The notes beneath the pieces were generated by a model that was not told the DNA's origin, did no database searches, and saw nothing but the letters and a program-made list of their open reading frames with translations. Shown in pieces: positions 11,075 to 14,782 of a stretch of DNA of 40,993 bases. The stretch lies in contig CANKHJ010000014.1 of NCBI GenBank assembly GCA_947481635.1, forward strand, positions 1 through 40,993, written 5' to 3'. The DNA comes from Bradyrhizobiaceae bacterium. GTDB taxonomy: Bacteria; Pseudomonadota; Alphaproteobacteria; Rhizobiales; Xanthobacteraceae. A program made the position numbers and the translations under genes. The first letter of the stretch is position 1; each line of letters opens with the position of its first letter.

Positions 11075-11172
11075 GCCGCATCCGGATAGACGACGCGCGG
11101 CGGCCTGTCATCTTCGCGGCCGATGCGGAACGGAAAATTCGAAGCGGCTTCGGATTAAAAAGAGAAAATAAT

Positions 11173-11191
11173 TCTATATTTATAATATAGA
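11173..11191. promoter_or_regulatory. AT-rich perfect palindrome in the glnD/importer intergenic region
   Basis: TCTATATT-TAT-AATATAGA is a perfect 8-bp inverted repeat with a 3-base spacer in otherwise GC-rich DNA. It lies 17 bases upstream of the -35 box of the importer promoter and about 100 bases upstream of glnD. It could be an operator or an UP-like element; no binding protein is suggested by the window. Confidence 0.45.
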
Positions 11192-11208
11192 AAGCAATTG
11201 TGATCTAA

Positions 11209-11237
11209 TTGACCTGAAAATATGGCCTCGGTATAGA
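11209..11237 (+). promoter_or_regulatory. Sigma70-like promoter of the importer operon
   Basis: TTGACC at 11209-11214 and TATAGA at 11232-11237 are separated by exactly 17 bases. The overlapping TAGAAT at 11234 is an alternative -10 box. Transcription would begin near 11244, directly ahead of the SAM-II-like RNA, leaving a leader of about 150 bases before the ATG at 11394. Confidence 0.65.
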
Positions 11238-11244
11238 ATAAAAG

Positions 11245-11298
11245 TAGCGCCGATTTGAGCGAGCAGCTTGCGGGTGCTTAACAAATGCAGCTAAAGCG
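11245..11298 (+). promoter_or_regulatory. SAM-II riboswitch aptamer (S-adenosylmethionine sensor)
   Basis: The RNA matches the SAM-II class element by element. P1 is AGCGC (11246-11250) with GUGCU (11274-11278). P1 is followed by GAUUU (11252-11256) and the loop segment UUGCGG (11268-11273). After P1, a 17-base tail (11279-11295) reads UAACAAAUGC then AGCUAAA, the same length as in the known metX SAM-II RNA. The pseudoknot pairing UUGCG with UGCAG (11268-11272 with 11286-11290) is possible. SAM binding in this class normally lowers expression, so SAM excess should repress the importer. Confidence 0.85.
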
Positions 11299-11301
11299 TG
11301 G

Positions 11302-11337
11302 GGCCCGCCCCGTCGCCAAGCTGAAGGCGGGCCGAAT
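11302..11337 (+). terminator. Leader hairpin, possible riboswitch expression platform
   Basis: GGCCCGCC (11302-11309) pairs with GGCGGGCC (11326-11333), followed by GAATTTT. It starts right after the SAM-II tail, so it could act as an intrinsic terminator, although the T run is short. The rest of the 11075-11393 gap, apart from the listed palindrome, promoter and riboswitch, shows no gene. Confidence 0.45.
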
Positions 11338-11393
11338 TTTCCCGCCTCCATTCTCACCGCCGGCGCCTTCGCTTGCGCCGCATTGGAGGTCCT

Positions 11394-12356
11394 ATGACTT
11401 TGGTATCTCGGCGTAGTCTGGTCGCTGCAGCGCTGATCGTCGGCTTCTTGCCGTCGGTCGCAGTCGCGGCGCCGAAGGAAATCCGCATCGACTGGGCGAC
11501 CTATAACCCGGTCTCGATCCTGCTCAAGAACAAGGGGCTGCTTGAGGCCGAGTTCAAGAAGGACGGCATCACGATCACCTGGGTGCAGACCCAGAGCTCC
11601 AGCAATGCGCTGCAGCTGCTCAATGCGTCCTCGATCGATTTCGGTTCGACGGCCGGCTCCGCCGCGCTGGTCGCCAAGATCAACGGCAATCCGATCAAGT
11701 CGATCTACACCTATTCGCGTCCGGAATGGACCGCGCTGGTCGTCACCAAGGACAGCAAGATCACCAAGGTCGAGGAGCTGAAGGGCAAGCGCATCGCCAT
11801 GGTGCGCGGCACCGATCCGCACATCTTCACAGTGCGCGCGCTGCTCGGCGCCGGTATCGGCGGCAACGACTACACCCCGGTGCTGGTGCAGAACCACGTC
11901 GACGGCGGCAATCTGCTGCTGCGCGGCGACGTCGACGCCTGGGCCGGCCTCGATCCGGCGATGGCGCAATTCGAGATCCGCGACGGCGCCAAGCTGTTCT
12001 ATCGCAAGCCCGAGGCCAATACCTGGGGCATCCTCAACGGCCGCGAGGATTTCGTGAAGGAGAATCCCGAGATCGTGAAGCGCGTGCTCGCGGTCTATGA
12101 AGAGGCGCGCAAATATTCGCTCGCCAATTACGAGGAACTCAAGCGCGACTTCATCGCCGTCACCAAGCTCGACGGCCCGGTGGTCGACAAGCAGCTCAAA
12201 GAGCGTACCGAACTGACCCACAACAAGGTCGGCCCGGCGCAACGCGACTCGATTCTCGAAGCCGGTCTCGCCCTACAGAAGGCCGAGGTGATCAAGGCCG
12301 GCGTCGACGTGAAGAAAGTGCTCGACGATCTGGTCGACGACAAATACGTGAACTGA
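11394..12356 (+). CDS. ABC transporter substrate-binding protein (sulfonate/taurine/nitrate type)
   Basis: This periplasmic receptor of 320 residues has a signal peptide (MTLVSRRSLVAAALIVGFL, cut near SVAVA). The mature part has the NMT1/SsuA-like pattern: LLKNKGLLEAEFKKDG, QLLNASSIDFGSTAGSAAL and DPHIFTVRALLGAG. The ATG follows a GGAGGT site 3 bases upstream. It is the first gene of a receptor-permease-ATPase set behind a SAM-II riboswitch. That context suggests a sulfur compound or methionine precursor as substrate; this is inference, not visible in the protein. Confidence 0.9.
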   Translation: MTLVSRRSLVAAALIVGFLPSVAVAAPKEIRIDWATYNPVSILLKNKGLLEAEFKKDGITITWVQTQSSSNALQLLNASSIDFGSTAGSAALVAKINGNPIKSIYTYSRPEWTALVVTKDSKITKVEELKGKRIAMVRGTDPHIFTVRALLGAGIGGNDYTPVLVQNHVDGGNLLLRGDVDAWAGLDPAMAQFEIRDGAKLFYRKPEANTWGILNGREDFVKENPEIVKRVLAVYEEARKYSLANYEELKRDFIAVTKLDGPVVDKQLKERTELTHNKVGPAQRDSILEAGLALQKAEVIKAGVDVKKVLDDLVDDKYVN

Positions 12357-12496: not shown

Positions 12497-13336
12497 ATGT
12501 CTCTTGCGTCCATGACCACGGTCGTCGAGCCCGCCACTGAAGTCGCCGTCACGGCGCAGCCCGCGCATTGGAGCCGCTATCTGCGGCCGGTGCTCGGCTT
12601 CATCCTGCCGGTGACGCTTGCGGTCGGCTGGGAATTGGCGGTGCGCTACGGCTACTCCAACGGCCGCCTGGTGCCGCCGCCCTCCGTCATCTTCAGGACC
12701 TTCGTCGAACTCGCCGAGACCGGAGAGCTGCAGCAGCATGCCTTCATCACGCTGTGGCGTGTGTTCGCCGGCTTCGCGCTCGGCGTGTCGGCCGGCACCA
12801 TCCTCGGCGCGCTCACCGGCTATTCGGGCCTGACGCATCGGCTGGTCGATCCGACGCTGCAGGCGCTACGCTCGATCCCGTCGATCGCCTGGGTGCCGCT
12901 GTTTCTCCTCTGGTTCGGAATCTTCGAGACCTCGAAGGTCACGCTGATCGCGGTCGGCGTGTTCTTTCCGGTCTATCTCGGCGTGATGGGCGCGGTGCTG
13001 TCGGTCGATCGCAAGATCGTCGAGGTTGGGCGCGCGTTCCGGCTCTCCGGCTTCGCGATGGTGCGCCGCATCCTGCTGCCGGCGGTGCTGCCGACCTACG
13101 TGATCTCGCTGCGTGCCGGCCTCGGGCTCGGCTGGATGTTCGTCGTCGCGGCCGAATTCCTCGGCGCCTCGCAGGGCCTCGGCTATCTGCTGGTCGACGG
13201 CCAGCAGCTCGGCAAGCCGGCGCAGATCGTCGCCGCCATCGTCGCTTTCGCGATCCTCGGCAAGATCACCGATACGCTGCTGGCGGTCGTCACGACGCCC
13301 TTCCTGCGCTGGGAGGACCGCTTCGCGCGGGGTTGA
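12497..13336 (+). CDS. ABC transporter permease (SsuC/TauC-like)
   Basis: The 279-residue inner-membrane protein has about six helices and a BPD_transp_1 core. The ATPase-contact (EAA) loop is visible around EVGRAFRLSGFAMVRRILLP. The segment ALRSIPSIAWVPLFLLWFGI is typical of permeases for sulfonates, taurine, nitrate and related anions. ATG 12497 gives a hydrophilic start (MSLASMTTVVEPATEVAV). It ends 3 bases before the ATPase gene, so the two are translationally coupled. Confidence 0.92.
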   Translation: MSLASMTTVVEPATEVAVTAQPAHWSRYLRPVLGFILPVTLAVGWELAVRYGYSNGRLVPPPSVIFRTFVELAETGELQQHAFITLWRVFAGFALGVSAGTILGALTGYSGLTHRLVDPTLQALRSIPSIAWVPLFLLWFGIFETSKVTLIAVGVFFPVYLGVMGAVLSVDRKIVEVGRAFRLSGFAMVRRILLPAVLPTYVISLRAGLGLGWMFVVAAEFLGASQGLGYLLVDGQQLGKPAQIVAAIVAFAILGKITDTLLAVVTTPFLRWEDRFARG

Positions 13337-13339
13337 GAT

Positions 13340-14131
13340 ATGCTCACCATCGATCGCGTTGGAAAGACCTATCCGAACGGCGTCCGTGCGCTCGACGGGA
13401 TCTCGCTCGACGTTGGGCCGGGAGAGATCGTGGTCGTGGTCGGCGGTTCGGGCTGCGGCAAATCGACCCTGCTGCGCGCGGTCGCCGGCCTCGATATCGC
13501 AAGCCAGGGCCGCGTCGGCCTCGACGGCGACACCATCACCGCGCCGCATGAAAAGATCGGCATCATCTTCCAGGAGCCGCGGCTGCTGCCGTGGCTCACC
13601 GTGGCCGACAATGTCGGTTTTGGGCTCGAGCATCTCCCCAAGACGCAGCGCCGCGAACGGGTCGCCGCGGCGCTGGATCGTGTCGGCCTTGCCGACAAGG
13701 CCGGCGCCTGGCCGCGTGAACTCTCCGGCGGGCAGGCGCAGCGCGTCGCGATCGCGCGCGCGCTGGTGCCGCAGCCGCAGGTGCTGCTGCTCGACGAACC
13801 ATTCTCCGCGCTCGACGCCTTCACCCGCGCCGACCTGCAGGACCATCTGCTCGATCTCTGGGCCGACACCAAGCCGACGCTGATCATGGTCACCCATGAC
13901 GTCGAGGAGGCGATCGTGCTCGCCGACCGTATCCTGGTGATGCGTCCGCGCCCCGGCCGGATCTACGAGGAGATCATCGACGACCTGCCGCGCCCACGCG
14001 ACCGGCAGTCGGCGGCGTTCGATTTCGTCAAGCGGCGCGTGCTCGCCGCGCTGGATCGCTCGCTCGATCGCGCCGTGAGCGTCGACGAACGCACCGAAAA
14101 GGCCGAAGCCGGCGCGCATAGCTGGTGGTAG
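13340..14131 (+). CDS. ABC transporter ATP-binding protein (SsuB/TauB-like)
   Basis: This 263-residue cytoplasmic ATPase powers the importer. Walker A is GGSGCGKST (35-43), the Q-loop is FQEPRLLPW (Gln78), the signature is LSGGQ (128-132), Walker B is VLLLDEP (148-154) and the switch His is 186 in VTHDVEEA. All are intact. The QEPRLLPW form is typical of the SsuB/TauB/NrtC group. It is the third gene of the operon behind the SAM-II leader. Confidence 0.94.
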   Translation: MLTIDRVGKTYPNGVRALDGISLDVGPGEIVVVVGGSGCGKSTLLRAVAGLDIASQGRVGLDGDTITAPHEKIGIIFQEPRLLPWLTVADNVGFGLEHLPKTQRRERVAAALDRVGLADKAGAWPRELSGGQAQRVAIARALVPQPQVLLLDEPFSALDAFTRADLQDHLLDLWADTKPTLIMVTHDVEEAIVLADRILVMRPRPGRIYEEIIDDLPRPRDRQSAAFDFVKRRVLAALDRSLDRAVSVDERTEKAEAGAHSWW

Positions 14132-14245: not shown

Positions 14246-14272
14246 GACTGGGTTGTTGAAAAGGATTTCATA

Positions 14273-14782
14273 ATGGACGCCGCAGAACTGCGCGCCATGC
14301 AGGCGCCGATCAAGGATCGCTACAAGACCGACGCCCAGGCGGCGATGATCACGCTGAAGGCGAGGGGCACGCTCGACGACACCAATATCGCGTGCAAAGT
14401 CGAGACTGGACGCGCGCTCGCCGTCGCCGGGCTGCATCCGGCCACCGGCGGCTCGGGCATGGAGCTCTGTTCCGGCGACATGCTGTTGGAGGCGTTGGTC
14501 GCATGCGCCGGCGTGACACTGAAGGCGGTCGCCACCGCCCTCGATATTCCGTTGAAATCCGGCGCGGTGTCGGCCGAGGGCGATCTCGATTTCCGCGGCA
14601 CGCTCGGCGTCGCCAAGGATGCGCCAGTCGGCTTCGCGCAGATTCGCTTGCGCTTCGACGTCGAAACCGACGCACCGCAGGAGAAGCTCGACCAGTTGCT
14701 CAAGCTGACCGAGCGCTATTGCGTGGTGTATCAAACCATCAAGAGCGGCCCGCCGGTCGACGTCCAGATGAAGCGGGCGTAA
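14273..14782 (+). CDS. OsmC/Ohr family protein
   Basis: The 169-residue product has the two cysteines of OsmC/Ohr proteins, Cys78 in LVACAGVTLKAVA and Cys150 in ERYCVVYQT. Members reduce organic hydroperoxides with these thiols, but many have unknown substrates. ATG 14273 is chosen because upstream codons run through the palindromic repeat. It may be read with the importer operon, 141 bases away, or have its own promoter. It is convergent with mutS. Confidence 0.88.
   Translation: MDAAELRAMQAPIKDRYKTDAQAAMITLKARGTLDDTNIACKVETGRALAVAGLHPATGGSGMELCSGDMLLEALVACAGVTLKAVATALDIPLKSGAVSAEGDLDFRGTLGVAKDAPVGFAQIRLRFDVETDAPQEKLDQLLKLTERYCVVYQTIKSGPPVDVQMKRA

Follow-up and report, generated by a model that had tools for sequence, protein, structure and literature searches.

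A SAM-II aptamer upstream of an SsuA-subfamily importer and osmC operon in a Bradyrhizobiaceae bacterium

Results

Genes of the operon

The window, that is the whole stretch of 40,993 nucleotides that was analysed, carries on its forward strand an operon of four genes, coding for an SsuA-type substrate-binding protein (11394–12356, PF09084), an ABC permease (12497–13336, PF00528), an ABC ATPase (13340–14131, PF00005) and, as the last gene, an OsmC-like protein (14267–14782, PF02566 with 69.4 bits against a cut-off of 27.5). Read from the sequence, a complete SAM-II aptamer is located at 11246–11298 on the same strand, with the ssuA-permease-ATPase-osmC genes downstream and a promoter-like element close upstream. 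The first-pass annotation, made from the letters of the window, had described a receptor-permease-ATPase set, which is present, but overlooked osmC, a constant part of the operon. In 76 of 80 orthologous loci a homologue of OsmC is encoded further along the same strand, and in the other four the available stretch stops before this can be judged; these 80 named loci are those kept of 370 relatives and many are from Bradyrhizobium. An alcohol dehydrogenase-like gene is inserted between the ATPase gene and osmC in some relatives. A PHROGs search with the OsmC-like protein gave no match.

The receptor belongs to the broad NMT1/THI5-like family and passes the SsuA subfamily model TIGR01728 with 212.1 bits (cut-off 163.5), and among solved chains it is nearest to 2x26, an aliphatic sulfonate-binding protein. 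It does not reach the narrower SsuA model (PRK11553, NF008588; 89.9 against 299) or the TauA models (TIGR01729, 46.5 against 304.25; NF008553, 34.2 against 490), and the operon does not reach the SsuC model. The earlier designation as an SsuA/TauA-type importer therefore holds for the SsuA subfamily but not for the narrower SsuA and TauA models, which are far from their cut-offs, and by these scores the operon can be assigned at the SsuA-subfamily level. Among its four genes there is no ssuD-like gene, and in the genome of the window no SsuD-type monooxygenase is found over the cut-off, with four weaker matches. The same genome has 16 matches to the TauD dioxygenase family, which is too broad to identify a pathway.

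Promoter region

The promoter-like element read from the sequence (11209–11237, forward strand) consists of TTGACC at 11209–11214 and TATAGA at 11232–11237, spaced by 17 bases, and transcription should start around position 11244. The aptamer would then begin about 2 bases after the start, as described for SAM-II, where the promoter lies few bases before P1 (Corbino 2005). TTGAC is located 41–44 bases 5' of GATTT in all 21 importer leaders tested, and 15 of the 21 have a -10-like hexamer (at least 4 of 6 positions, best of three spacings, without a shuffled control). A scan for strict consensus promoters found none at the importer leader. By eye, a similar promoter is present without an aptamer in the relatives L034, L045, L064, L079 and L118–L120. 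Just 5' of the importer promoter, at 11172–11192 of the window, there is also an AT-rich inverted repeat, TTCTATAT...ATATAGAA, noticed by eye and possibly an extra protein-binding site.

Parts of the aptamer and covariance-model scores

The 5' strand of P1 (11246–11251) pairs with the 3' strand (11273–11278), helix and loop together spanning 11246–11278 on the forward strand. GAUUU, corresponding to nucleotides 8–12 of the solved structure 2QWY, is found at 11252–11256, the 5' side of P2 at 11266–11271 with GC (P2a) followed by UUGC (P2b, 11268–11271), and the 3' side of P2 at 11290–11297 with the bases GC U AA A GC. The ligand contacts U44 and A47 (PMC3764141) are positions 11292 and 11295. 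The SAM-II elements listed in the first-pass annotation, namely P1, GAUUU, UUGC and a 17-base tail at 11279–11295 ending in AGCUAAA, were thus correctly recognized and placed.

The Rfam model RF00521 (SAM_alpha) matches the window copy end to end at 11237–11314 (forward strand) with 31.8 bits, E=1.1e-5 for the 271 bases searched and E=4.5e-5 over the whole genome. As the gathering score of the model is 36 bits, no SAM-II is reported when the whole window is scanned with Rfam defaults; the scan proposed earlier as a check of the element is significant, but under the curated threshold. The genome has in addition a canonical SAM-II copy, scoring 75.2 bits with RF00521, 5' of a gene named metZ from its sequence and neighbours. 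For RF00521 over 241 genomes of the class the figures are 131 at E≤1e-3 and 115 over the cut-off. The P1 of the window copy is AGCGCC/GGUGCU and that of the metZ leader CGUGGU/ACCACG, and among the matches listed many copies of the GCGCC type score about 35–44 bits, a range that straddles the cut-off. This flavour as a whole is therefore not unknown to Rfam; the window copy falls short and is an example missed by the default threshold.

Two further models were built. A sequence pattern picked out 23 importer loci, whose leaders were aligned (A1) to give model R1, and this model was searched against family and class genomes. A second alignment (A2) of 61 distinct class-wide sequences, none of them from the family of the window, gave model R2; because its members were gathered with R1, R2 is independent of R1 in its content but not in the way it was assembled. 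R2 scores the window copy with 69.7 bits (E=1e-16), the second-best place in the window reaching 7.6 bits, and over the whole genome the window copy ranks first (E=1.3e-14), followed by the metZ copy with 32.4 bits.

Covariation and pseudoknot

Changes on both sides of a pair are seen for five of the six P1 pairs in A2 (61 sequences), and for all six in a mixed set of 30 sequences that was picked for diversity and includes five CGUGG-type copies. The whole structure with its pseudoknot gives 94.7% paired cells on A2, and none of 500 shuffles reaches any of the five measures used. With the mixed set four of the five measures beat all shuffles, the exception being the number of further pair types (144 of 500). 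Pair 24-40 covaries in the same set, being A-U in the five CGUGG-type copies, including the metZ leader of the same genome, and G-C in the remaining 25 sequences, including the window.

For 2QWY the pairs C23-G42, U21-A45 and U20-A46 are listed (PMC3764141), and continuity of the P2b helix implies G22-C43. P2b, UUGC with GC(U)AA, is kept in 61 of 61 sequences of A2 and is nearly invariant, with one change from C-G to U-A (L275). P2a is less well supported, one of its two pairs failing in 18 of 61 of these class-wide sequences and the other in 11 of 60, although all 23 importer leaders have G and C at positions 48–49. The alternative register UUGCG/UGCAG was rejected, having no both-side change, scoring no better than shuffles and with its C-G pair broken in 23 of 60 (61 sequences), and it is at odds with the solved structure as well. 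The first-pass annotation was accordingly right in proposing a pseudoknot but gave it this register, and the compensating change that it read from UUGCA/UGUAG to UUGCG/UGCAG belongs to the wrong register as well, the real one being at the neighbouring pair 24-40.

Thirteen positions, U10-U12, U20-C23 and G42-A47, are reported as completely conserved in SAM-II (PMC3764141), and all of them are intact in the window. They are likewise all present in 22 of the 23 importer leaders, a count that is no independent evidence since 12 of the 13 are already required by the pattern used to find them. In A2, where sequences were chosen by model score, each core position is kept in 58 to 61 of the 61. The exception among the importer leaders is found in a Pseudolabrys leader (L037:4910–4960), in which the ligand contact A47 is changed to C, and this aptamer may be decaying.

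The score of R2, the covariation and the intact ligand-contact positions all bear out the proposed identity, and on sequence grounds the element can be firmly assigned as a SAM-II aptamer.

The leader downstream of the aptamer

The minimum-energy fold has a hairpin at 11288–11323 (forward strand), in which CAGCU at 11288–11292 pairs with AGCUG at 11319–11323 around an inner stem GGGG/CCCC. Since it uses G42, C43 and U44 it is incompatible with the bound pseudoknot, and it is proposed as the conformation taken in the absence of SAM. In a consensus fold calculated from 20 leaders its G-C pair (columns 49–95) is present in all 20 and its C-G pair (columns 50–94) in 19, with no change on both sides of either; since one strand belongs to the invariant aptamer, such changes do not arise and covariation cannot test the hairpin. 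The minimum-energy fold of the leader, by a method that is blind to pseudoknots, is no better than that of shuffles (z −0.21).

A second hairpin, GGCGGG...CCCGCC, folds at 11326–11346 on the same strand. It has no U-run after it, which makes a terminator less clear, and a terminator scan found no intrinsic terminator on the coding strand. On its 3' side there is a possible anti-Shine-Dalgarno sequence, CCUCCA (11345–11350, forward strand), complementary to UGGAGG at 11384–11389. A complement of at least 6 bases is found in 10 of 20 leaders, with a mean length of 4.9 against 3.8 in shuffles. Masking of the ribosomal binding site of the importer is, by this complementarity, a weak possibility.

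Occurrence among importer orthologues

A strict pattern, which may miss diverged copies, finds the aptamer within 400 bases upstream in 15 of the 80 named importer loci and not in the other 65. Among the 391 genomes of the family the receptor is present at E≤1e-60 in 212, and R1 matches 87 at E≤1e-3, with 48 matches of at least 64 bits among those listed. The best 30 of these 48 strong matches are all located directly 5' of an SsuA orthologue, and so are four more of them, L214–L217.

Searching the 241 genomes of the class with the receptor alone, a selection that is blind to the aptamer, gave 18 at E≤1e-40, one of them the window's own; with 18 of 241 genomes matching, the importer is not common in the class at this threshold. 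In the other 17 a loose pattern finds the aptamer within 350 bases upstream of the gene in 11 and none in 6. The pairing of aptamer and importer recurs in other families at 48–56% receptor identity, and at 8 of 11 class-wide importer loci with an aptamer OsmC is also encoded in the fetched stretch. Because the pairing recurs in such diverged orthologues the aptamer is assigned to the importer operon, as had been proposed.

Loss of the aptamer elements in relatives that keep the importer, named in the first-pass annotation as an argument against its reading, is found in part. The importer is present in Bradyrhizobium, Afipia, Rhodopseudomonas and some Pseudolabrys, where the patterns used found no aptamer. 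Presence of the aptamer, labelled by sequence pattern, requires 5 changes of state on a tree of 119 receptors, against a mean of 38 when shuffled. Deep rows of the tree have it; a clade of 60 that comprises Bradyrhizobium, Afipia, Rhodopseudomonas and some others does not, nor do another 9 rows. Eleven class-wide rows of the tree were chosen for having the aptamer and several branches are long, and the count that is free of such selection is the 11 of 17 class genomes, not the tree. The distribution is consistent with an old association with later losses.

Other genes behind related aptamers

A total of 62 fetched class-wide R1 matches, mostly from the top of a list of more than 100 and including two with a CGUGG-like P1 (L266 and L274), were surveyed for the gene that follows. 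The next gene is of the MetY/MetZ type in 28 cases (same strand, within 1000 bases), the importer in 11 and osmC in 2. Further targets are PAPS reductase (L231), siroheme synthase (L234 and L255) and MetF (L242), and MetX (L271) and a sulfate-binding protein (L226) are over their cut-offs, while at L251, L258 and L263 the best model is MetN but under the cut-off, the products being MetN-like ATPases. A methyltransferase (L237), a PF03601 protein (L233) and a RimK-like protein (L269) are off the sulfur theme, and the profile comparison assigned no family for L219 and L245.

In the two genomes where osmC has a SAM-II of its own (L218 and L220), a second SAM-II precedes the importer. A 1.4 Mb alphaproteobacterial genome (L299:559–2468) has a SAM-II of 37.6 bits, over the cut-off, followed by an OsmC-like gene, whose product is 29% identical to the OsmC of the window, and a metZ-like gene. 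In L239 the order is SAM-II, metY and then an OsmC-like gene (29%). In Pelagibacter osmC is the most raised gene under sulfur limitation and is located behind SAM riboswitches, its response being put down to peroxide protection; organosulfur transporters were not raised, which was unexpected to the authors (PMC5069961).

Two other observations come from the window's own family. A SAM-II-like match precedes a gene for the dimethylsulfone monooxygenase SfnG (L204:2419–3577; TIGR04021, 620.9 bits, over the cut-off). Matches of the same flavour, with 44–56 bits by R1, are located directly 5' of a calcineurin-like metallophosphoesterase gene at eight of eight fetched loci (L202, L203, L205, L207–L210 and L213) in genus g24, probably Bradyrhizobium, the proteins being 64–84% identical to that of L202.

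Discussion

By its sequence, the leader is probably a SAM-II riboswitch that at high SAM represses an operon for organosulfur uptake and an OsmC-like protein; we infer the binding of SAM, the direction of control, the mechanism and the cargo. Binding of SAM would close the H-type pseudoknot and thereby withdraw G42, C43 and U44 from the hairpin at 11288–11323. The downstream RNA set free in this way would lower expression, perhaps by CCUCCA masking the ribosomal binding site, and a high level of SAM would thus shut down the importer and OsmC-like operon, repression being the direction expected from the SAM-II class. The cargo should then be an organosulfur compound that serves as a sulfur source, and OsmC would presumably act in the same response to sulfur limitation. 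The support for this reading is slightly tempered by the count of conserved contacts in the relatives, which is partly circular.

The aptamer itself can hardly be a chance resemblance: the RF00521 score is under the Rfam cut-off, but a model built from other families finds the element at E=1e-16 and it recurs at orthologous places, by which chance is refuted. It is very unlikely that a real aptamer stands here with no control over the importer, as a relic of a duplicated metZ/metY leader that does not switch. Such a relic would fit with the want of a clear expression platform, the many relatives that have no aptamer, the changed A47 in L037 and a second hairpin loop that by eye is like that of the metZ leader (L001). 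Against it, the aptamer is kept in 20 leaders with differing surroundings together with a downstream GCUG (19 of 20), these leaders having been picked for the motif, and the pairing with the importer recurs in other families in spite of receptor identities of 48–56%. A SAM-II fold with a changed ligand, for example another sulfur metabolite, has to be considered because rare SAM-I variants associated with odd genes sense spermidine (PMC10853860), and the gene set is here wider than methionine synthesis. This is highly improbable, as the window retains every SAM contact that has been published; furthermore, matches to the same model precede MetY/MetZ-type genes in 28 of 62 cases, and metY is a known SAM-II target.

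It is also rather unlikely that the cargo has nothing to do with sulfur supply, the importer taking up nitrate, a thiamine precursor or an aromatic compound and SAM being a general growth signal. The breadth of the NMT1/THI5-like family would allow this, as would the distance of the receptor from the TauA and narrower SsuA cut-offs and the alcohol dehydrogenase-like gene in the operon of some relatives. The best receptor model is nevertheless that of the SsuA subfamily, over its cut-off, the nearest solved chain is an aliphatic sulfonate-binding protein, and where genes behind related aptamers could be identified, most are sulfur or methionine genes.

The window copy is a further member of a known riboswitch class, one most familiar from leaders of genes for making methionine, and the importer-osmC target was not found in the literature searched. 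For Rhizobiales and Rhodobacterales, the SAM_alpha targets given by Leyn 2014 are metY, hom, metA, metX, metC and metW; the importer-osmC operon is not named there, Table S2 set aside. A match to RF00521 and a nitrate/sulfonate transporter are reported on different contigs of a metagenome (PMC3101246), and no bearing on an association of SAM-II with the importer was found in PMC4448311, PMC8877191 and PMC12452182 (Bacillota). No description of SAM-II together with importer and osmC was found, subscription papers and supplements lying outside the search.

With the SAM-II elements in front of metA, metX, metZ and metY the window copy shares P1, the GAUUU loop, the UUGC/GCUAA pseudoknot, U44, A47 and a promoter just 5' of P1, but no U-run terminator was found for it and its target is the importer-osmC operon. 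The bhmT leader of Pelagibacter, with osmC and ordL beside it, has a SAM riboswitch, osmC and a setting of sulfur limitation in common with the window; it differs in being a tandem of SAM-II with SAM-V and in controlling bhmT, not an importer, and the likeness of osmC is one of gene name. With the alkanesulfonate importers SsuABC and TauABC the window operon shares the gene set and the SsuA subfamily model, and 2x26 is the solved chain nearest to its receptor; it differs in not reaching the narrower SsuA, TauA and SsuC models, in having no ssuD-like gene among its four genes, and in having osmC as its last gene.

If the reading of the leader as a repressing SAM-II riboswitch is true, the SAM-II regulon extends from the making of methionine to the acquisition of sulfur, and there would be a handle on the cargo of this SsuA-subfamily importer and on why osmC genes answer to SAM and sulfur limitation. 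More tentatively, SAM-II of the GCGCC type could run a wide sulfur-scavenging regulon in Alphaproteobacteria, with the OsmC-like protein as one of its core parts and coupled to an organosulfur importer, a proposal that we hold somewhat less probable than its opposite. The sequences suggest that the level of SAM also controls sulfur scavenging in several alphaproteobacterial families.
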